Source: Ponticaulis koreensis DSM 19734
GTDB taxonomy: Bacteria > Pseudomonadota > Alphaproteobacteria > Caulobacterales > Hyphomonadaceae
Length of the DNA: 64,000 bases
Direction: 5' to 3'
Assembly: GCF_000420665.1 (NCBI RefSeq)
Contig: NZ_ATVJ01000001.1
Coordinates: forward strand, 1,426,001-1,490,000
Shown here: positions 5,788 through 46,495 of the stretch, piece after piece
Numbering within the stretch: the stretch's first letter is position 1
Layout: each line of letters begins with the position of its first letter
Translations under genes and position numbers: made by a program
Notes under the pieces: model-generated
The model's database searches: none
Seen by the model: the letters and a program-made list of their open reading frames with translations, nothing else
What the model was told of the DNA's origin: nothing

Positions 5788-8016
5788 TTAAGCAGCCGCT
5801 TTTTCCTGCTTTGCTGGTGGGAAGCGGGAGTAGAAGGTTTCACCCTTCTCAGCCATTTCGCGTAGCATTGCATTCGGACGGAAGCGTTCGCCATGTGCGT
5901 CCGCGAGGCGGTCTGCTTCTTCAACGAAGGCTTTAATGCCCCATTTGAGGTCCATGTAAGACGCACAGCCGCCTGTGTATGGCGCAAAGCCCCATGCCAG
6001 GATCGAGCCGATATCTGCGTCACGTGCGTCTGTGATCACGCCTTCTTCAAAGCAGCGCGACACTTCGATGCACTGACGGAAGAGGAAGCGCGTGGTCAGC
6101 TCTTCTTTGAGGTCAGGCGGGCACTCGTCGACCTTTACTTCCAGCTTGTCGGAAAGGTCCGGCCAGAGGCGTGTCGGCTTACCGTTATCGCCATACTCGT
6201 AATAGCCCTTGCCGGCTTTACGGCCGACGCGGCCTTTGTCTTCCACGAGCCATGCGAGGAACTGGCTGGATGGTTGCTCGTTGGCATCAGCGCCTGCAGC
6301 TTTGGCATACTGGCGACCGATTTTCAGAGCTGTATCGAGGCCAACAGAGTCCGAAACTTCCAATGGGCCCATTGGCATGCCGCACTGACGGCCGACATTC
6401 TCGATGATGGCAGGCTTGATGCCTTCCATCAGCATTTCCATGCCTTCCTGCGTGTATGTGCCGAAGCATCGTGATGTGTAGAAGCCACGGAAATCGTTCA
6501 CGACGATTGGCGTTTTGCGGATCTTCAGAACATAGTCGATCGTCTTGGCAAGCGTTTCTTCGGTAGTTTTGTCACCAAGGATGATCTCGACAAGGCCCAT
6601 ACGCTCAACCGGCGAAAAGAAGTGGACGCCGATATAGTTTTCAGGGCGGACAGATGCTTCTGCGAGACCGGTGATTGGCAGGGTAGACGTGTTGGAGCCC
6701 ATGACCGCTGTGTCGGCGAGGTGCTCTTCCGCCATTTTCGTGACTTTGGCTTTCAGCTCTGTGTCCTCGAACACGGCCTCAACCACAATGTCTGCGCCCT
6801 TGATCTGGGAGTAGTCTGTGCTTGGCGTGATGAGAGAGAGAATGCCGTCCGCTTTCTCCTGGCTCATCTTGCCGCGAGACACCTGCTTGTCGAGGATGCG
6901 CTTGGAGTAAGCCTTACCTTTTTCGGCGCTCTCCTGAGAGATGTCGAGAAGGACGGTTTCAATACCAGCCATCGCCTGAACGTGAGCAATACCCGCGCCC
7001 ATGAGGCCAGCGCCGAGAACAGCTGCTTTCTTGACTTCGTATTTTGCGGGTGCTGCCGGACGGGATGCGCCCTTGGACAGTTCCTGCATGGACACGAAGA
7101 GCGAGCGGATCATGCCTTTGGCTTCCGGACGCTGCTGCGTGTCGATGAAGTAGCGTGTCTCAATGCGAAGACCTGCATCGATTGGCACCTGAGAGCCTTC
7201 ATAGAGGCATTTCAGAATGTTCGTCTGCGCAGGATAATTGCCATAGGTTTTCGATGAAATCATCGCATTGCCCATGGTGGAGATTTGTGTCGCCTTAGGG
7301 TGCTGGTTTGGAACGCCGCCCGGGAATTTGAAGCCTTTCTCGTCCCATGGCGCTTTCGCGTTCGGGTTGGCTTTTGCCCATGCTTTGGCTTTCTCGACCA
7401 GCTCAGCTGTTGGCGAGAGTTCGTTCACAACGCCAAGGCCGAGGGCTTCGTCAGCCTTCATGGATTTGCCTTCCAGAATGTACTGGCTGGCAGCCATCAG
7501 GCCGATTAGACGCGGTAGGCGCTGTGTGCCACCTGCGCCTGGCAGAAGGCCGATTTTCGCTTCTGGCAGACCAAGTTGAAGCTTCGGATTGTCGTTCGCC
7601 GCAACGCGGTAGTGACATGCCAGCGCGAGTTCCAGACCGCCGCCGAGAGCGAGGCCGTTAATTGCGGCAGCAACCGGCTTGCCGCAGGTTTCCAACTCGC
7701 GGAAGGTTTTGTTCAGCACGAAAGACCGGTCGAACAGCTTTTTGAGTTTTGTCTGCTCGTCTTCGTCTTGTGCAGCGCCGCCGCCTGCGGACTGGTTCAT
7801 CTCGCCAAGGTCAGCGCCCGCGCAGAAGCCTGATGGCTTGCCGGATGTAATGACGAGGCCTTTGATTTCGTCATTGGATGCAACTTCAGCGGCCAGAGCG
7901 ACGATATCCTGAACGACCTGACCGGTCAGTGTGTTCATGGAGCGGCCCGGTACGTCGAAGGTTGCCAGCGCAATGCCGTCGCCGTCGATTTCGAATTTGA
8001 ATGTTTCGAGGTTCAT
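5788..8016 (-). CDS. FadB/FadJ-like enoyl-CoA hydratase / 3-hydroxyacyl-CoA dehydrogenase
   Basis: A 742-residue bifunctional beta-oxidation enzyme. The N-terminal crotonase fold (about 1-190) has oxyanion-hole sequences FCAGADLGEM and GGGLELALACHY and the second catalytic glutamate in LPEAKIGLLPGAGG. The middle has an NAD-binding Rossmann motif (VLGAGLMGAGIAH, about residue 333) and the hydroxyacyl-CoA dehydrogenase signature VHFFSPVERMGLVEI. The C-terminal dehydrogenase half includes GRKAGKGYYEY. It hydrates trans-2-enoyl-CoA and oxidises 3-hydroxyacyl-CoA to 3-ketoacyl-CoA. It is the last gene of a minus-strand operon with thiolase, matching the alpha/beta (FadJI/FadBA) subunit pairing, and is followed by a strong terminator. 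Confidence 0.93.
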   Translation of the reverse strand: MNLETFKFEIDGDGIALATFDVPGRSMNTLTGQVVQDIVALAAEVASNDEIKGLVITSGKPSGFCAGADLGEMNQSAGGGAAQDEDEQTKLKKLFDRSFVLNKTFRELETCGKPVAAAINGLALGGGLELALACHYRVAANDNPKLQLGLPEAKIGLLPGAGGTQRLPRLIGLMAASQYILEGKSMKADEALGLGVVNELSPTAELVEKAKAWAKANPNAKAPWDEKGFKFPGGVPNQHPKATQISTMGNAMISSKTYGNYPAQTNILKCLYEGSQVPIDAGLRIETRYFIDTQQRPEAKGMIRSLFVSMQELSKGASRPAAPAKYEVKKAAVLGAGLMGAGIAHVQAMAGIETVLLDISQESAEKGKAYSKRILDKQVSRGKMSQEKADGILSLITPSTDYSQIKGADIVVEAVFEDTELKAKVTKMAEEHLADTAVMGSNTSTLPITGLAEASVRPENYIGVHFFSPVERMGLVEIILGDKTTEETLAKTIDYVLKIRKTPIVVNDFRGFYTSRCFGTYTQEGMEMLMEGIKPAIIENVGRQCGMPMGPLEVSDSVGLDTALKIGRQYAKAAGADANEQPSSQFLAWLVEDKGRVGRKAGKGYYEYGDNGKPTRLWPDLSDKLEVKVDECPPDLKEELTTRFLFRQCIEVSRCFEEGVITDARDADIGSILAWGFAPYTGGCASYMDLKWGIKAFVEEADRLADAHGERFRPNAMLREMAEKGETFYSRFPPAKQEKAAA

Positions 8017-8250: not shown

Positions 8251-9456
8251 TTAAACCCGCTCAATCACAGTTGCTGTGCCCATGCCCGCACCGACGCAAA
8301 GCGTGATGAGAGCGGTCTCTTTGTCTGAGCGCTCAAGCTCGTCGACCATTGTGCCGAGGATCATGCCGCCGGTCGCACCGAGCGGGTGACCCATAGCGAT
8401 TGCGCCGCCGTTTACGTTGATCTTGTCGTGAGCGATGTCGTGCGCCTGCATGAAGCGCAGAACTACAGACGCGAACGCCTCGTTCAGCTCGTAAAGGTCG
8501 ATGTCAGACGCTTCCATGCCGAGCTTTTTGAGAAGCTTGGTGGTCACGAATTCCGGACCGGTGAGCATGATGGATGGTTCAGAACCGATAGATGCAAAGC
8601 CTTTCACGCGTGCACGTGGTTTTAGGCCCAGCGCGTCACCCATTTCCTTCGTGCCGAAGAGAACGGCAGACGCACCATCAACGATACCGGAAGAGTTACC
8701 AGCGTGGTGGACGTGGTTGATTGCTTCCACTTCAGGGTAGCGACGCTTCACAACTTCATCAAAGCCCATGCCGCCAAGACCGGCAAAGCTAGGGTTGAGG
8801 CCAGCCAGAGACTGCATGTCAGCTTCCGGACGCATATGCTCGTCACGGTCAAGAATGGTTGCGCCCATCTGGTCTTTCACAGGCACGATAGACTTGCCGA
8901 AACGATCTTCTTCCCAGGCTTGTGCTGCGCGGCGCTGGCTCTCGACAGCGAAGGCGTCAACGTCGTCGCGGGAGAAGCCGTATTTCGTCGCGATGAGGTC
9001 CGCGCCAATGCCTTGCGGGGCGAAGTAAGATTTCAGAGCGATGCTCGGGTCTGTTGACCATGCGCCGCCATTTGAGCCCATTGGCACACGAGACATGGCT
9101 TCAACGCCGCCGCCGATTGCCATGTCAGCTTCGCCTGTCATGACCTTCGCTGCAGCCATGTTGCAGGCTTCAAGGCCTGAGGCGCAGAAACGGTCAACCT
9201 GAACACCGCCGACAGTTTCGGCATAGTCTGCGTTCAGAACGGCGATACGTGCGATGTCTGAGCCTTGCTCGCCAACCGGAGAGACGCAGCCGAGAACGAC
9301 GTCGTCTACTTTAGAAGTGTCGAGGTCGTTGCGGTCGCGCACAGCCTGAAGGGCCTGTGTTGCGAGGCTAAGCGCGGTGATTTCATGCAGCGCGCCGCTG
9401 GCCTTTCCTTTCCCGCGCGGTGTGCGTACCGCGTCATAAATATATGCTTCTGCCAT
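8251..9456 (-). CDS. Acetyl-CoA C-acetyltransferase (thiolase)
   Basis: A 401-residue thiolase. Nucleophile Cys91 lies in [10 protein letters not shown], His357 in [11 protein letters not shown] and the second active-site Cys387 in TLCVGAGMG. It cleaves 3-ketoacyl-CoA to acetyl-CoA plus a shortened acyl-CoA. Length and the [12 protein letters not shown] start fit the FadA/FadI-like degradative subgroup. It lies 24 bases after the thioesterase stop and is coupled to the 70-residue protein behind it, consistent with the beta subunit of a trifunctional complex. Confidence 0.93.
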
Positions 9457-9480
9457 TTGGTGTTCTCCCTTTCGGATCTC

Positions 9481-9915
9481 TTATTCCGGTGTCGGAAATT
9501 TCATGAGCATGGCGCTCGAAGTGGCGCGTACGCACAGGCGTCCGCGTTCATCGAACAGCTTGCTCTCAAGGTAGGCGACTGAACGTCCAAGCTGTGTAAC
9601 CTCTGCCTCGCAGATAACGGGGCCAAGGCGTACCGGACGCAGATAGTGAGCGTGCAGGTCAATCGAGCTGGACATGTATTTGCCGCCCGATTTGACAAGC
9701 ACTGCCGGGCCCATAGTGTCGTCCAGCATGGCCATCAGGAAACCGCCCTGAATAACGCCTGCCGGGTTCAGAAACTCGGGCTTTGGATTGAATTTGATTT
9801 TGATCCAGCCGCGCGCCGTGTCGGCATCCTGAAACTCGAAGCCGAGATGCTTCGCAGCCGCCGGCGCTGCGGGGCTGTCATTTCTGAAAAACTGTGCCGG
9901 ATCAAAATCGGACAT
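9481..9915 (-). CDS. PaaI-family hotdog-fold thioesterase
   Basis: A 144-residue hotdog protein. The frame opens at 9936, but ATG 9915, 4 bases after the preceding dehydrogenase stop, is preferred (MSDFDPAQFF). The core motif NPAGVIQGGFLMAMLDDTMG matches the helix and catalytic region of PaaI/YbgC-like acyl-CoA thioesterases, followed by the SSIDLHAHYLRPVRLG strand. It probably hydrolyses acyl-CoA, possibly to relieve CoA trapping during beta-oxidation. Its position inside the operon supports this. Confidence 0.85.
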   Translation of the reverse strand: MSDFDPAQFFRNDSPAAPAAAKHLGFEFQDADTARGWIKIKFNPKPEFLNPAGVIQGGFLMAMLDDTMGPAVLVKSGGKYMSSSIDLHAHYLRPVRLGPVICEAEVTQLGRSVAYLESKLFDERGRLCVRATSSAMLMKFPTPE

Positions 9916-9919
9916 CAGA

Positions 9920-11086
9920 TTACATTGTCCTCGCAATCAGCATCTTCATGACTTCGTTTGCGCCGCCATAAATGCGCTGGACACGGCTGTCTGCGTACAT
10001 TTGGGCGATCGGATATTCATCCATATAACCATAGCCGCCGTGCAATTGGAGGCATTCATCCACGATTTTACATTGCAAATCGGACACCCAGTATTTCGAC
10101 ATGCTGGCCGTCGCAGAATCCAGTTTGTTTTCAAGGAGCAGGTCGGTGCAGCGGTCTACGAACACTTTTGCGACAGTTGCCTCGGTTTTGCATTCCGCCA
10201 GCTTGAACTGGGTGTTTTGAAAGTCCCAGATGGTTTTGCCGAAGGCTTTGCGCTGCTTCACATACTCAACGGTCACATGGATAGCGCGCTCAATCGTAGC
10301 CATGCCCTGAACGCCGATAATGTGACGCTCCTGCGGAAGCTTTTGCATGAGCTGGATGAAGCCCATGCCTTCCTTGCCGCCGAGAACAGCGTCCGGGCCG
10401 AGCTGAACATCATTGAAGAACAGCTCTGAAGTATCTGCTGCGTGCTGGCCGATTTTCTCAAGATTGCGGCCGCGCTCAAACCCCGCCGCACCATCGGTTT
10501 CCACCAGCATGATGGAGACGCCTTTGGCGCCTTCGGTCGGGTCCGTCTTTGCGCAAACAAGAATGAGGTTCGCGTTCTGGCCATTCGAGATGAAGGTCTT
10601 CGAACCATTAAGCACATAACCGTCCGCATTCTTCTTTGCGGTGGTTTTGATGTTCTGAAGGTCGGATCCCGTGCCCGGCTCTGTCATTGCGATGGCGGTG
10701 ATGATCTCGCCCGTTGCGATCTTGGGCAGGTATTTCTGCTTCTGCTCTTCAGTGCCGAAGCTTTCAATGTAAGGCGCGATAATGCCATTATGGAGGGTGA
10801 TACCGAAGCCATCGATACCCTTCCAGCCCATCTGTTCTGCGATGATGGCTTCGTGACGGAAGTCGCCGCCCATGCCGCCATACTCTTCGGAAACGGATGC
10901 GCAAAGAATGCCCATCTCACCGGCTTTCAGCCACATCTCTTTGGGAACGATGCCGTCTTTTCGCCATTGCGGTACGTGCGGTGCACATTCTTTTTCAAAG
11001 AACTGTCCAACCGAGTCCGAGAAGATTGAAACTTCTTCGTCGAGACGCCAGCCTGAGGCCGGAATGTCGAGAGGTGATTGCAGCAT
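9920..11086 (-). CDS. Acyl-CoA dehydrogenase
   Basis: A 388-residue flavoprotein of the short/medium-chain acyl-CoA dehydrogenase family. Recognisable are AMTEPGTGSDLQNIKTTA (FAD/substrate contact), GYVLNGSKTFISNG, the QLHGGYGYMDEYP segment and the C-terminal catalytic-base region RIYGGANEVMKMLIART. It catalyses alpha,beta-dehydrogenation of acyl-CoA, passing electrons to ETF. It starts at ATG 11086 after GAGGGAAAT and heads the thioesterase-thiolase-FadB transcript. A MerR/LiuR-like motif lies 25-39 bases upstream. Confidence 0.93.
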   Translation of the reverse strand: MLQSPLDIPASGWRLDEEVSIFSDSVGQFFEKECAPHVPQWRKDGIVPKEMWLKAGEMGILCASVSEEYGGMGGDFRHEAIIAEQMGWKGIDGFGITLHNGIIAPYIESFGTEEQKQKYLPKIATGEIITAIAMTEPGTGSDLQNIKTTAKKNADGYVLNGSKTFISNGQNANLILVCAKTDPTEGAKGVSIMLVETDGAAGFERGRNLEKIGQHAADTSELFFNDVQLGPDAVLGGKEGMGFIQLMQKLPQERHIIGVQGMATIERAIHVTVEYVKQRKAFGKTIWDFQNTQFKLAECKTEATVAKVFVDRCTDLLLENKLDSATASMSKYWVSDLQCKIVDECLQLHGGYGYMDEYPIAQMYADSRVQRIYGGANEVMKMLIARTM

Positions 11087-40569: not shown

Positions 40570-43392
40570 ATGCTCGGATCACTTTCAAAATCACTCGCGG
40601 CGCGCCTGACGTGCCAGACGGCTGCTGCAGCGCTTCTGGCTATGGGTATGGCAGGCGCTGCTTACGCTGAAACTGTTACAGGTACGCTGGCAGACGGCGA
40701 CGCCACGACAGACGCAGGCGGATATTCCGACCGGTACGAATTCGAGGTGTCTAGCGCAGGTATGCTCTATGTCGATCTCGTTTCAGACGATTTCGACACT
40801 TACCTCACACTGGTCACACCATCCGGCGAACTGCTTGAGAATGATGACTACGGCATGAGCTTCAACTCACGCGTCATGTTCAACACAGAAGAGACCGGCA
40901 CCTTTATTGCCATTGTCTCTTCCTACGATACGGACGGCGCGGGCGAGTACACGCTCGAATACAACACGATAGAGTTGAATGAGGGCGGCCCGGCGGCGAC
41001 GATCGCGGCAGATGGCGAGACCATTTCCGGTGAACTCGCAATGGGTGACGGCTTCAACGAACACGGGTCTTTCTTCGATACATATGAAGTCGAGATTGAA
41101 GAAGGCGCTCATATTTTCTTCAGCGTCTCTTCTGACGAGTTCGACACGCTGATCGCGCTGATTTCTCCTTCGGGCGAAGAATACGTCAATGACGACTATG
41201 GCATGGGCGTGAATTCCGGCCTGATGATGCAGGCAGAAGAGAGCGGTTCATACGAATTCGTCGTCACCAGTTATGGCGAAGGTGCGACAGGCGCTTACGA
41301 ACTCGACTATCAGGTCAGCGATGCACCATTCGGCGGCATGCCTGAAGTTCTGACCTATCTCACGGATGTGGTTGAAGGTGAACTGTCCGAGGATGACGGC
41401 ATGATGCCAAACGGTAGTGTTGTCGATCTTTATGAAATTTCTCTGCAGCAGGGCACATCCATGATGGTGCGCCTCGACTCAGACGATTTCGACACGGTTC
41501 TCACCATTACGTCTCCATCCGGCGAAGAGATGTTCAACGATGACTTCGGTGACTCGCTGAATTCCGGCCTGATGATACTGGCGGAAGAGACAGGCATTTA
41601 CACGATTGAAGTCGGTGCTTTCGGCATGGACGGCTTGGGCGCGTACACGATGGATTATCGCACAAGCGATGAGCCGTTTTCTGGCGCACCTGAAACGCTC
41701 GAGCCGGGTTCGGGCGAAATTTATGGTCGTCTTGAACTCGGTGACGGGGTTCACCTGTCCGGCGCGCTTCAGGATGTGTATCAGCTTGAAGTGGCTGAAG
41801 GTGAAACGCTGATCCTGCGTCTGAATTCCGAACAGTTCGATCCATTCCTGCGTGTCACCACGCCGCAAGGTTATGATATTGAGAATGACGATTTTGCCGG
41901 TGAACTGAATTCGGCGATTATGACGGTCGCTGAAACGGCGGGCACATACACAATCGTTGCCACCAGCTATGGCGCTGGCGAAGCAGGCGATTATGCGTTC
42001 AGCTATCAGGTGTCCGACGAGATCGAAGCCGGACCGGCAACATCTCTCTCTCGTGATGGTGGAGACGTTGAAGGCATGTTGACGCTTGGCGATGGCATCA
42101 ATGAAGACGGGACGCTGTATGATCTCTATGAGATCGAGCTTGTCGAAGGTGAAACCTTCCAGCTGTTCCAGCGCTCCGATGCTTTTGATAGCTATCTGAC
42201 GGTGGCGACACCTTCAGGCGAAGAGTTCGTCAATGACGATTTCGGTGGTGGCTTTGACTCACGCGTCGCATTTGAAGCGCCTGAAAGTGGTGTCTACACG
42301 GTTACCGCCTCAACATTCGGCTCTGGTGAAGCTGGAAGCTACACAATCAGCTACGCTGTAAGTGACGAGCCAATCGGTGGTCCGCCGGTGGAACTCAATG
42401 GTGATGAGGGCTCCCTCGAAGCTGAGCTTTCCATCACTGATGCGACCGGTGAAAACGGCTCCTACATGGATGAGTATACGCTGGATGTTCCGGCGGGTGC
42501 ATTGCTGACTGTCGACATGAACTCCATCGATTTTGATACGTTCCTCATGGTTCGCGGCCCGGATGGTTCCGAGACGTTCAATGACGACTTTGAAGGCAGC
42601 CTGTCACATTCTCGCGTGGAACTGACAGCGTTCGCAGGCGGTGAGTACACCATCACAGCATCAGCTTACTCAGCAGGTGAGTATGGTGATTACGAACTGT
42701 CCTTCATGATCGATGAAGACAATCCGCGCGACTTCTTCACTGGCGAGCTGGCAGAAGGCGATGATCTGGCTGAAGAAGGCCAGTATCAGGACAGCTATGA
42801 GATCGACGCTGAAGTTGGTCAGGATCTGGTTGTTGATCTTCGCTCTGCCGAGTTCGACACCTATCTGACGGTGATCGCGCCGGATGGCGAGACGCTTGAG
42901 AATGACGACTATACTGGGCTTGGCCATTCACATGTAGAACAGCGCGTCCGCGTGCCGGGTACATATACCGTTCTGGTTCGTAGCTTCGGTGAGGGTGAAA
43001 CCGGTTCGTACACGGTTGAATACAGCCAGGAAGAAGGCCCGGTAATGGGCGGGGAACTGGAAGCAGAAGCTGAAATCGGTTCTGGTGACTCCATCAATGG
43101 CGTGCTGGAAGAGGGCGATGCGCTGCACGAAGCGGGTGAGTTCCGCGACGTGTACTCATTCGAAGCCGGTGTTGGTGAAGAGGTCGCATTTGATCTGTTC
43201 TCGGCTGGATTCGACACGTATCTGATCGTTGTGTCACCGGATGGCGCGTGGACAGAAAATGATGATTATAACGGCTCGCTTGATCATTCTCACATTACGA
43301 TGACAACAGATCAGGCCGGTGAGTACATGGTTATTGTTACCAGCTATGATCTGGAAGAAACAGGTGATTACCTCCTGTTCCGTCGCAGCTGA
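40570..43392 (+). CDS. Secreted protein of eight pre-peptidase C-terminal (PPC) repeats
   Basis: A 940-residue, very acidic protein. Signal peptide residues 1-33 (AAYA-E). Eight PPC-type beta-sandwich units start near residues 35, 150, 265, 380, 498, 613, 720 and 838. Each has a FDTYL-type strand, a P-S/D-G turn, an ENDDY/NDDF loop (probable Ca2+ or turn motif) and a GETGSY-type end. Units 6-8 carry SLSHSR/HSH motifs like the repeats in the next gene. No catalytic domain is visible. GAGGGG precedes ATG. A strong terminator follows, then the PPC-caspase gene. It is possibly a substrate-binding, adhesive or inhibitory partner of that protease (inference). Confidence 0.85.
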   Translation: MLGSLSKSLAARLTCQTAAAALLAMGMAGAAYAETVTGTLADGDATTDAGGYSDRYEFEVSSAGMLYVDLVSDDFDTYLTLVTPSGELLENDDYGMSFNSRVMFNTEETGTFIAIVSSYDTDGAGEYTLEYNTIELNEGGPAATIAADGETISGELAMGDGFNEHGSFFDTYEVEIEEGAHIFFSVSSDEFDTLIALISPSGEEYVNDDYGMGVNSGLMMQAEESGSYEFVVTSYGEGATGAYELDYQVSDAPFGGMPEVLTYLTDVVEGELSEDDGMMPNGSVVDLYEISLQQGTSMMVRLDSDDFDTVLTITSPSGEEMFNDDFGDSLNSGLMILAEETGIYTIEVGAFGMDGLGAYTMDYRTSDEPFSGAPETLEPGSGEIYGRLELGDGVHLSGALQDVYQLEVAEGETLILRLNSEQFDPFLRVTTPQGYDIENDDFAGELNSAIMTVAETAGTYTIVATSYGAGEAGDYAFSYQVSDEIEAGPATSLSRDGGDVEGMLTLGDGINEDGTLYDLYEIELVEGETFQLFQRSDAFDSYLTVATPSGEEFVNDDFGGGFDSRVAFEAPESGVYTVTASTFGSGEAGSYTISYAVSDEPIGGPPVELNGDEGSLEAELSITDATGENGSYMDEYTLDVPAGALLTVDMNSIDFDTFLMVRGPDGSETFNDDFEGSLSHSRVELTAFAGGEYTITASAYSAGEYGDYELSFMIDEDNPRDFFTGELAEGDDLAEEGQYQDSYEIDAEVGQDLVVDLRSAEFDTYLTVIAPDGETLENDDYTGLGHSHVEQRVRVPGTYTVLVRSFGEGETGSYTVEYSQEEGPVMGGELEAEAEIGSGDSINGVLEEGDALHEAGEFRDVYSFEAGVGEEVAFDLFSAGFDTYLIVVSPDGAWTENDDYNGSLDHSHITMTTDQAGEYMVIVTSYDLEETGDYLLFRRS

Positions 43393-43441
43393 TCTGACGT
43401 GAAATCATAAGCGGACTAAGCTGTTAGTCCTCAGCTTCATA

Positions 43442-43475
43442 AAGCCCGTCTGTATTTAGCAGGCGGGCTTTTTTT
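43442..43475 (+). terminator. Rho-independent terminator after PPC-repeat gene
   Basis: Stem AAGCCCGTCTG / CAGGCGGGCTT (43442-43470, one G-U pair), followed by a T7 run. Confidence 0.9.
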
Positions 43476-43678
43476 GGGCGATAGGGACATGATTTTTCGG
43501 CGGTTTCTATCGATTTTTTTAAAAATTACATTTCGTTCAGGTTAGGTTTATGTGACAATTCCTACTGTCAATACCTAGATCGCAGGTGTTTGGCTGGACG
43601 ACACAGTGCTTGAAAGGGAAGGTCACTAGTCCGTTTTACAGCTGACCATCAGGGGTAAACGCAATACGAGGGGACGTT

Positions 43679-46309
43679 ATGTTCAAGGGACCAAAACTTT
43701 CTACGCTGAAGCGCTCAACCAGCGCTGTTGCCGTCGCATCTGCTATCGCAATCGGGTTCTCCGGTTTGGCGATTGCGCAGGTCGCCAAGGGTGACACATT
43801 CACAGGCAATCTGGCTGCAGGGGATGAGCAGCTCCAGTCCGGTGAGTATCAGGACAGCTATACATTCACGGCGAATGCTGGAGATCAGATCACGGTTGAT
43901 CTGACGTCTACGCAGTTCGACCCATACCTCATTCTGATCCCGCCGGTTGGCGACCAGATGGACAATGATGACTGGGAAGGATCGCTCTCTCATTCACGCA
44001 TTGAGACAACAGCGTCCAGCAGCGGCACGTATGAAGTGCTCGTCACCAGCTTCGCGCCAGGTGAAACGGGCAGCTATATGCTCGAATATGATGCAGGCGC
44101 CGGTTACGGCGGTGGCTATGGTGGCGGTGCTGCGCAAGGCGCGACTGGCACACTCGCACCGGGCGACCAGACGCTTACCACCGGTGAGTACTCCGACCGC
44201 TACGAATTTACAGCCGGCCCGGGCGAGGCGGTGTCTATCGACCTGACGTCTAACGACTTCGACCCATATCTGATCGTGCAGACACCGGATGGCGAGCAGC
44301 TTGATAATGATGATTATCAGGGCAGCCTGTCGCGGTCCCACATTGATGCGACGGCCGCAAATGGCGGCACTTACATGGTGCAGGTGACAAGCTATTCACC
44401 AGGTGAAACAGGCGCATACTCGCTGTCCTTCAACGGCTCTGGTGGCGGTCAGCCCGGCTATGGCGGTGGTAGCAGCTCCGGCTCCACAGGCTCGCTTTCG
44501 TCCGCTGACGAACAGCTTCAGTCCGGTGAGTTCCTCGACCGATACACACTGAATGCGTCTGCTGGCGAGAACATCATTGTTGATCTCACATCTGACCAGT
44601 TTGACCCGTACATCATTCTCGTGACGCCAAACGGCGAGCAGATCGAGAATGATGACTGGGAAGGTTCTCTGTCTCATTCCCGCGTTGAAACGGTTGCGTC
44701 TCAGGGCGGTGCATATGAAGTCATCGTAACCAGCTTTGCGCCGGGAGAAACCGGCTCTTACGCGCTTTCTATGGAAAGCGGCGGTTCTGGAGGCTTCTCC
44801 GGTGGCGGATATGCTGGCAGCTTCTCCGGCATGTCTGAAACAGGCACGCTGGCGCGCGGCGACGAGACATTGGAAGGCGGCGAGTTCTTCGATGTCTATC
44901 CGTTCTCAGGCTCTGCTGGTCAGCGTTTGTCTATCGAAATGACGTCAACCGAGTTTGATACCTGGGTTGGTCTGGTTGGCCCTGAAGGCATTATCGACGC
45001 GAACGATGATGCGCCGAATATGGGCACAAATAGCCGCCTCGATATCTCTCTGCCAACGTCTGGTGAGTACTCTGTGATCGCGACATCTTTCGCAGCAGGT
45101 GAAACTGGCCGGTACAATCTGAACGTCAGTGCTGGCGGCGGATCTTCACGTCCTGTCACGAACTCTAACAATGCTTCGGAACTGTATGTCGGTGCGTCTG
45201 TGAACGGTCAGCTGACGACCAGCGACCGCCGCGGTCAGTACGGCGAATATGAAGATACATATTCCTTCCAGGCTCAGGCAGGCCAAAACGTCCGTGTCAC
45301 AATGGAATCCGGACCAATCGATACCTATCTGCGCCTGACGGGTCCGGGCGGTGTATCGCTTGAAAACGATGACTATAACGGCTCGCTCGATCAGTCTGTC
45401 ATCGAATTCCGTGCACCGTCTTCAGGTCGCTACACCGTAACGGCGACATCTTACGCTGAAGGTGAAACGGGCTCTTACACCCTGTCCGTAACGGATGGCA
45501 CGGGTAACTCCCAGCTCATCCCGAACAATGGTGGTGGCTATGGCGGTGACAGCACGGAAATCTATGGCATCTTCGTAGGCATCTCAGATTATCCGAGCTT
45601 CTATAACGACCTGCCATATACCGCTCAGGACGCTGTACTGGCCCATGATGCGGTACGTGACTTTGGCGGCATGAACGCGAGCAATGCGATCCTGCTGACA
45701 GACGAAGAAGCGACCGAGGCGAACCTGCGTCAGGCCTTCCAGACTCTGTCTGCCCGTATGGATGACGATGACACATTCGTGTTCTTCTTCTCCGGCCACG
45801 GTAACCGCGTAGAAATTCGGGGCGCGGCCGAAACAGCCGACCTTGATGGTATGGATGAGACAATCGAGCTCTATGACAATCCGCTGACTGATACTCAGTT
45901 CGATGCGCTTCTCGACAGCATGCCGGTCGAACGTGCGTTGATCATTCTCGACAGCTGCTATTCAGGTGGTTTCGCAAAAGATGTGATCTCGTCTCCGGGC
46001 CGTATGGGCCTCTTCTCTTCGGAAGAAGATGTTGTGTCTCTCGTGGCGTCCAAGTTTGAAGCGGGCGGATATCTGGCTCACTTCTTCCGCGCTGCGCTGG
46101 AAACAGGTGAAGCGGATATCAACGGTGACAGTCAGCTCGACGCAATTGAGCTCAGCCAATATCTGCGCACAAGTTATCTGCTTGAGCATCAGAGCAAGCG
46201 TCAGCTGGAAAGCTTTGAATCGCTCGATGATATCGACGTGACTTACCAGCACCTCGTCGTCGACCGTTCAGGCGTTTCGCCTTACGAAGTCTTCTTCGAG
46301 CTTCGTTAG
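43679..46309 (+). CDS. Secreted PPC-repeat caspase-like (C14) protease
   Basis: An 876-residue exported protein. Signal peptide 1-33 (GLAIA-Q). Five PPC units at about 38-136, 155-252, 270-365, 386-483 and 504-604 are joined by Gly-rich linkers (GYGGGYGGG). The C-terminal caspase-fold domain (about 625-876) begins IYGIFVGISDYPSF. Catalytic His707 is in FFFSGHGNRVE and Cys760 in LIILDSCYSGGF. After it, DINGDSQLDAIE (813-824) has the spacing of an EF-hand loop, hinting at Ca2+ activation as in metacaspases. Expected specificity is after Arg/Lys (family knowledge). Predicted location is the periplasm or outside the cell. It is transcribed separately from the preceding PPC gene. Confidence 0.9.
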   Translation: MFKGPKLSTLKRSTSAVAVASAIAIGFSGLAIAQVAKGDTFTGNLAAGDEQLQSGEYQDSYTFTANAGDQITVDLTSTQFDPYLILIPPVGDQMDNDDWEGSLSHSRIETTASSSGTYEVLVTSFAPGETGSYMLEYDAGAGYGGGYGGGAAQGATGTLAPGDQTLTTGEYSDRYEFTAGPGEAVSIDLTSNDFDPYLIVQTPDGEQLDNDDYQGSLSRSHIDATAANGGTYMVQVTSYSPGETGAYSLSFNGSGGGQPGYGGGSSSGSTGSLSSADEQLQSGEFLDRYTLNASAGENIIVDLTSDQFDPYIILVTPNGEQIENDDWEGSLSHSRVETVASQGGAYEVIVTSFAPGETGSYALSMESGGSGGFSGGGYAGSFSGMSETGTLARGDETLEGGEFFDVYPFSGSAGQRLSIEMTSTEFDTWVGLVGPEGIIDANDDAPNMGTNSRLDISLPTSGEYSVIATSFAAGETGRYNLNVSAGGGSSRPVTNSNNASELYVGASVNGQLTTSDRRGQYGEYEDTYSFQAQAGQNVRVTMESGPIDTYLRLTGPGGVSLENDDYNGSLDQSVIEFRAPSSGRYTVTATSYAEGETGSYTLSVTDGTGNSQLIPNNGGGYGGDSTEIYGIFVGISDYPSFYNDLPYTAQDAVLAHDAVRDFGGMNASNAILLTDEEATEANLRQAFQTLSARMDDDDTFVFFFSGHGNRVEIRGAAETADLDGMDETIELYDNPLTDTQFDALLDSMPVERALIILDSCYSGGFAKDVISSPGRMGLFSSEEDVVSLVASKFEAGGYLAHFFRAALETGEADINGDSQLDAIELSQYLRTSYLLEHQSKRQLESFESLDDIDVTYQHLVVDRSGVSPYEVFFELR

Positions 46310-46331
46310 GCGTGAGCGACATGGATAGAAA

Positions 46332-46357
46332 AAGCCCGCTGAAGAGCGGGCTTTTTT
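46332..46357 (+). terminator. Rho-independent terminator after PPC-caspase gene
   Basis: AAGCCCGCT-gaag-AGCGGGCTT (46332-46353) followed by T6, 23 bases after the stop. Confidence 0.92.
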
Positions 46358-46495
46358 GTGTTTGAGAACGGCGCTTGTGGACGGACGTGCAAGAGCACAG
46401 GCGAATAAAATTCTGAAATATCAGAGGTGATATGAGTTATTTTGGTTGTATTATTTGAAAAATAGTTGGCGGGCTGTGGGTAACTCTGGTTAAAT

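Follow-up and report, generated by a model that had tools for sequence, protein, structure and literature searches.

A PPC-fused metacaspase-like protein, predicted to be exported, in Ponticaulis koreensis and relatives from at least four bacterial phyla

Introduction

Discussion of the bacterial relatives of caspases has centred on intracellular cell death and defence. Among known systems, the closest to the protein described below are the metacaspases and orthocaspases of subfamily C14B, represented by AtMC4, TbMCA2, CgMCA-I and yeast Mca1 and, in bacteria, by GSU0716 (3bij). Here, we analysed a window of 64,000 nucleotides from Ponticaulis koreensis DSM 19734 that encodes a protein of this kind, which we call a PPC-caspase or PPC-orthocaspase. 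It has the fold and catalytic dyad of the C14B proteins, as well as their acidic S1 residues and two calcium-ligand positions (D723 and D738), although the fold matches are at about 15–22% identity. It differs from them in its predicted export, its N-terminal array of PPC units and an EF-hand-like loop in the p10-like half. The VALVIGN-type C14 proteins of Alphaproteobacteria likewise carry the C14 domain behind a signal-peptide-like segment, but they have no PPC between the two, lack the EF-hand-like loop (0/24), in many cases contain a DACRDNP-type Cys motif and are placed apart from the PPC-caspases in the tree.

The PPC-type beta-sandwich is shared with secreted PPC proteases (E495/vibriolysin type, KerSMD and VhaC). 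In those enzymes, a metalloprotease or serine protease is followed by PPC on its C-terminal side, whereas here PPC lies N-terminal to a cysteine protease, and the protein is thus not a classical secreted PPC protease. The nearest precedent is found in cyanobacterial calpains, in which PPC is also N-terminal to a cysteine peptidase, an arrangement described as unusual, although the peptidase is a C2 calpain rather than a C14 domain (PMC4631099). The full-length structural model matched the fold of the ColG collagen-binding domains (5iku, s3as3b); its hits to Cry toxins and neuropilin, which are beta-rich but unrelated, had very low TM-scores and were disregarded. Similarity to the EACC1-associated caspases (NF047832) is recognisable across residues 631–830, but the score of 42.9 bits is far below the cut-off of 140. 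Within PPC unit 5, residues 519–588 matched PliG-type g-type lysozyme inhibitors (4dy5, E = 1e-4; 4dy3 and 4dxz), which suggests that certain proteins with the PPC fold may act as inhibitors.

Gene and domain organization

The PPC-caspase gene is translated without interruption into 876 amino acids from an ATG start preceded by a ribosome-binding-like site (AGGGGA), and the opposite strand of this region contains short ORFs only (Table 1). Pfam searches found PPC (PF04151) in five stretches, with an E-value of 3.2e-33 and 114.8 bits against a cut-off of 25.9, and Peptidase_C14 (PF00656) at residues 632–767, with 43.2 bits against a cut-off of 21.4. Both families therefore exceed their cut-offs, and the ORF, Pfam and alignment results, together with inspection of the N-terminus, bear out the architecture proposed in an earlier sequence-only reading of this DNA, namely a signal-peptide-like N-terminus, five PPC units and a C14 domain with His707 and Cys760. 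That reading included neither the adjoining gene with eight PPC units nor the calcium-site residues and EF-hand-like loop. In the whole 3.4 Mb genome, a single C14 gene and two genes with a PPC match were detected, the latter being the two that adjoin here.

Table 1. Features of the PPC-caspase locus, in positions of the window
Feature	Position	Strand	Evidence
PPC-only gene (940 aa; signal-peptide-like N-terminus; eight PPC units), candidate partner	40570..43392	+	ORF; Pfam
Intrinsic terminator-like hairpin after the PPC-only gene	43441..43475	+	43430-43486 folds at -25.7 kcal/mol, z -5.4
PPC-caspase (PPC-orthocaspase) gene	43679..46309	+	ORF/translation; Pfam PPC x5 and Peptidase_C14 over cut-off
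Predicted Sec signal peptide, residues 1-34 (AIA/Q)	43679..43780	+	Inspection and crude script
PPC unit 1, residues 39-142	43793..44104	+	Pfam; beta-sandwich in model
PPC unit 2, residues 154-256	44138..44446	+	Pfam; beta-sandwich in model
PPC unit 3, residues 268-369	44480..44785	+	Pfam; beta-sandwich in model
PPC unit 4, residues 385-489	44831..45145	+	Pfam; beta-sandwich in model
PPC unit 5, residues 506-611, adjoining the protease	45194..45511	+	Pfam; unit tree
C14 metacaspase-like catalytic domain, residues 626-876	45554..46306	+	Pfam; structure model; Foldseek
Catalytic His707	45797..45799	+	Metacaspase alignment; invariant 29/29
Catalytic Cys760	45956..45958	+	Metacaspase alignment; invariant 29/29
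EF-hand-like loop DINGDSQLDAIE, residues 813-824	46115..46150	+	Pattern; helix-loop-helix in model
Intrinsic terminator-like hairpin after the PPC-caspase gene	46330..46357	+	46322-46366 folds at -22.1 kcal/mol, z -5.6

Catalytic domain

His707 (within SGHGN) and Cys760 (within LDSCYSGG) fall in the His and Cys columns of metacaspases in alignments with PDB sequences. The assignment of the dyad in the sequence-only reading thus holds, and both residues are invariant in the 29 family members. The top PDB sequence match was Arabidopsis metacaspase-4, at 8.4e-11 when the single sequence was searched and at 5.2e-23 for a family profile, and the dyads of the two proteins align. An AlphaFold (AF2) model of the C14 domain had a mean pLDDT of 79 and a pTM of 0.83; used as a Foldseek query, it matched metacaspases best (E = 2.7e-12, TM 0.61), which places it in the caspase/hemoglobinase fold. 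In the full-length model, confidence is low for the loop at 783–792, behind the conserved SSEED motif.

In AtMC4, a basic residue is pocketed by Ser84 and Asp137 together with Asp352/Ser350 (PMC7206013), while in TbMCA2, Cys92, Asp95, Ser156 and Asp211 are important (PMC4357240; see also PMC6426788 for the metacaspase pocket). S705 and D758 occupy the positions of AtMC4 Ser84 and Asp137, and D651 that of TbMCA2 Asp95, whereas no alignment could be obtained for the pocket residue on the p10 side. These three residues and the dyad are invariant in 29/29 family members, and cleavage after Arg or Lys rather than after Asp is therefore predicted. The catalytic domain is thus metacaspase-like, with an acidic S1 pocket of the C14B type; membership in the caspase subfamily C14A, which has a basic S1 pocket for Asp, was rejected because the pocket positions are acidic. 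It is also the most constrained segment of the protein, with 79% identity to the L016 protein, compared with 61% for PPC and 28% for the 18-codon linker between PPC unit 5 and C14.

Processing

Known metacaspases process themselves at sites between p20 and p10 or inside these units (PMC7206013, PMC9622860), and maturation of the PPC-caspase could take place solely inside the catalytic domain, at Lys/Arg of the loop at 838–857 or at R775, leaving PPC and p20 joined. K840 and R841 do lie within a flexible, low-confidence loop, and R775 is kept in 25 of the 29 members; however, R775 adjoins a strand and is replaced by Val in the other four, and the sequence of the loop is unconserved, so that we regard this route as unlikely.

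The sequence-only reading had suggested that self-processing frees the protease or the repeats; in such a model, the PPC array would be a pro-region from which the protease cuts itself free once exported. Metacaspases are known to self-process (PMC7206013), certain secreted proteases bearing PPC occur both with and without it (PMC3327674), and the full-length model shows low-confidence linkers between all domains, which, being rich in Gly, would be accessible. Three members (L066–L068) even have five to six Lys/Arg in the PPC–C14 linker. In the Ponticaulis protein and its two nearest relatives, however, this linker contains no Lys or Arg, nor does it in 11 of the 29 members overall, and no Lys/Arg site is conserved among the 29. 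The sole Lys/Arg in the other inter-domain linkers is R491, which is followed by Pro. Given the predicted cleavage after Lys/Arg, a poorly conserved linker devoid of these residues argues against a conserved release site, and we consider self-release unlikely.

Calcium-site residues and the EF-hand-like loop

The Ca2+ ligands of CgMCA-I include Asp198, Asp214 and Asp245 (PMC9622860). D723 and D738 correspond to the first two and are each invariant in the 29 family members; D768 is a possible counterpart of Asp245, present in 26/29, although the register against the eukaryotic ligand is uncertain and the correspondence inexact. A further candidate site is the loop at residues 813–824, which fits an EF-hand-like pattern (a 12-residue loop D-x-[DN]-x-[DNS]-x-x-hydrophobic-xxx-E between helices); the models show the flanking helices and a short strand at loop positions 7–9. 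The pattern was found in 23 of 28 family members, many of them with canonical EF-hand loops such as DRDENGEVTAIE and DEDGDGSVSSFE, but in none of 24 other alphaproteobacterial C14 domains, and it is missing in four members from Myxococcota. The loop is a lone, unpaired hand, and the Pfam profile EF-hand_6 reached 12 bits, in one relative. Since some archaeal orthocaspases have been reported to carry EF-hand motifs (PMC6426788), such a loop in an orthocaspase has a precedent. Together, these positions point to calcium dependence, which conserved ligands alone do not imply, and calcium-rich surroundings may serve as the switch for activity.

In another alphaproteobacterium (L057:1-4743), three consecutive C14 genes were found. 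Two of these are near-duplicates whose starts resemble signal peptides, and the third has an EF-hand-like loop as well.

Export

The N-terminus, MFKGPKLSTLKRSTSAVAVASAIAIGFSGLAIA followed by Q, resembles a Sec signal peptide by inspection and by a crude script, with K3, K6, K11 and R12 in the n-region, a hydrophobic core and AIA before the Q; export, as proposed in the sequence-only reading, is therefore likely. The same script detected a signal-like N-terminus in 26 of 27 PPC-caspase members, a soft count, as the relaxed version is also positive for a few ORFs that are probably not secreted, while a stricter one missed obvious signals. PPC-caspases of Myxococcota and other groups carry lipobox or AxA-type signal sequences, and these differing types suggest that export has been retained across the family. 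Lipobox-like motifs (LAGC and STAC) occur in several members from Myxococcota and Rhodothermota, some of which may be lipoproteins. The Ponticaulis genome also encodes the type II secretin GspD (521 bits against a cut-off of 351).

The view that bacterial caspase-like proteins are usually intracellular did not hold in our class-wide sample of alphaproteobacterial C14 proteins: among the 21 with readable starts, 17 had, by eye, a signal-peptide-like segment immediately N-terminal of the domain. This agrees with a 2012 survey by Asplund-Samuelsson et al., in which probable signal peptides and architectures of an extracellular kind were noted in many cases and roles at the surface or in fratricide were considered (PMC3501461). 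For a bacterial C14 protein, export is thus ordinary, and the special part of the present family is its conserved fusion to PPC.

Distribution and phylogeny of the family

Using the catalytic domain only as query, we found matches in Gammaproteobacteria (including SAR86 MAGs), Myxococcota, Rhodothermota and Planctomycetota, as well as in further genomes of Alphaproteobacteria and of the phylum of the Rhodothermaceae MAG. The family thus spans at least four phyla, Pseudomonadota included. It is rare but widespread: PPC-caspases are encoded in 4 of 105 Hyphomonadaceae genomes, with close matches in approximately 1% of the sampled Alphaproteobacteria, in 4 of 247 genomes of the Rhodothermaceae phylum and in 1 of 199 of the planctomycete's class, the source genome itself. 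A phage or plasmid origin was rejected, as we found no phage match and the plasmid matches were remote C14 proteins of 30–33% identity.

Although PPC was absent from the query, all 29 members (the Ponticaulis protein counted) have 1–6 PPC units N-terminal of C14. The repeats are therefore not the peculiarity of one protein that the sequence-only reading took them for; the fusion is fixed across the clade. In the tree, one branch separates 27 PPC-caspase sequences from 13 other C14 domains (98/98, 99% bootstraps), with the caveats that the outgroup branches are long, that members were chosen by similarity and that most of them come from MAGs. In a tree of individual PPC units, unit 5 clusters with the protease-adjacent units of Rhodothermota and Planctomycetota (87/83), whereas units 1–3 of the Ponticaulis array form a separate lineage group (98/95). 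Considering also that three family members have a single PPC and C14, the core architecture looks like one PPC plus C14, with the five-unit array expanded locally.

In the open-access literature, no paper was found that deals with caspase-family proteins and pre-peptidase C-terminal domains together, and PPC goes unmentioned in the text of the main prokaryotic metacaspase surveys; within that literature, the family is apparently undescribed.

Four proteins from marine gammaproteobacteria (L018, L019, L020 and L029) have, ahead of the PPC array, an N-terminal region of approximately 200 aa with two to three Cys-containing repeats (DFGDDxSxWANDxxCDDPRF...HDASDCR), a motif for which no Pfam family was found in L019.

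The neighbouring PPC-only gene

Directly upstream of the PPC-caspase gene lies a gene whose product consists of PPC units and nothing else. The two genes adjoin in all four genomes of the Ponticaulis group that have the caspase (the present one, G080, G081 and G085). Elsewhere in the genus, G082 and G083 gave no PPC match, and G084 contains other PPC proteins and no caspase match. Terminator-like hairpins follow each gene, both identified by folding and neither listed by the promoter/terminator scan, and the two genes are thus probably transcribed separately; the strong hairpin between them weakens the case for an operon. Nor is the PPC-only gene a recent copy of the PPC array of the caspase, since its eight units form a clade of their own (97/86), apart from that array. 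At L014:10839-13668, in a near-identical Ponticaulis relative, two additional genes lie between the caspase and the downstream glycosyltransferase.

In Rhodothermota (n=2), two short PPC-only genes lie immediately upstream of the PPC-caspase (L022:2111-4512 and L024:6389-8330), some of them with lipobox-like signals. Given that the partner units of Ponticaulis and Rhodothermota fall apart in the unit tree, the association with PPC-only genes seems to have arisen more than once. At L017, a one-PPC gene is located a few genes from the PPC-caspase, while no PPC-only neighbour was seen beside the genes of Myxococcota or most of those of Gammaproteobacteria. In Planctomycetota (n=2), PPC-caspase genes are paired (L030:4328-7765 with 8327-10750 and L028:1813-4107 with 6261-7658), and an acidic stretch is inserted close to the C-terminus of the second copy.

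Proposed function

We consider it fairly probable that the protein is an exported, calcium-dependent protease specific for Arg/Lys that is kept outside the cell by its PPC array. A cysteine protease of the metacaspase/orthocaspase type would be exported by Sec, and the type II secretion system present in the genome could take it across the outer membrane. Joined by Gly/Ser-rich linkers, the five PPC beta-sandwiches make up an N-terminal array whose most likely role would be to anchor the enzyme to the cell surface or a matrix, or to position it there, and the C-terminal C14 domain would cleave proteins after Arg or Lys. Ca2+ bound at D723, D738 and probably D768, and perhaps also at the EF-hand-like loop, would most likely support activity, so that activity would be low in the cytoplasm, where calcium is scarce, and would set in outside the cell, especially in water rich in calcium. 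The adjoining protein with eight PPC units is probably a functional companion in the same compartment, as a scaffold, inhibitor or substrate.

A surface cell-death or fratricide factor that targets neighbouring cells would be in line with a general proposal for extracellular prokaryotic metacaspases (PMC3501461) and with the patchy distribution of PPC-caspases. However, no toxin, immunity or delivery module was seen beside the gene, which has terminator-like hairpins of its own, and there are no phage copies and only remote plasmid relatives of its C14 domain, which makes such a role improbable. That the C14 domain is non-proteolytic and serves in binding or regulation, as the existence of bacterial pseudo-orthocaspases might suggest (PMC6426788), is very improbable given the invariance of dyad and pocket and the constraint on the catalytic domain.

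Extended to the family, the reading of an exported, calcium-dependent protease would make these proteins secreted orthocaspases of several phyla, activated by export and Ca2+ through the metacaspase site and the EF-hand-like loop and accompanied by PPC-only partners, a generalization that we put forward tentatively. That a clade spread over at least four phyla looks exported, has its catalytic and calcium apparatus complete and invariably carries PPC suggests a proteolytic role of the caspase fold outside the cell, and whether the PPC-orthocaspase is an export-activated, calcium-dependent protease is now a directly testable question.
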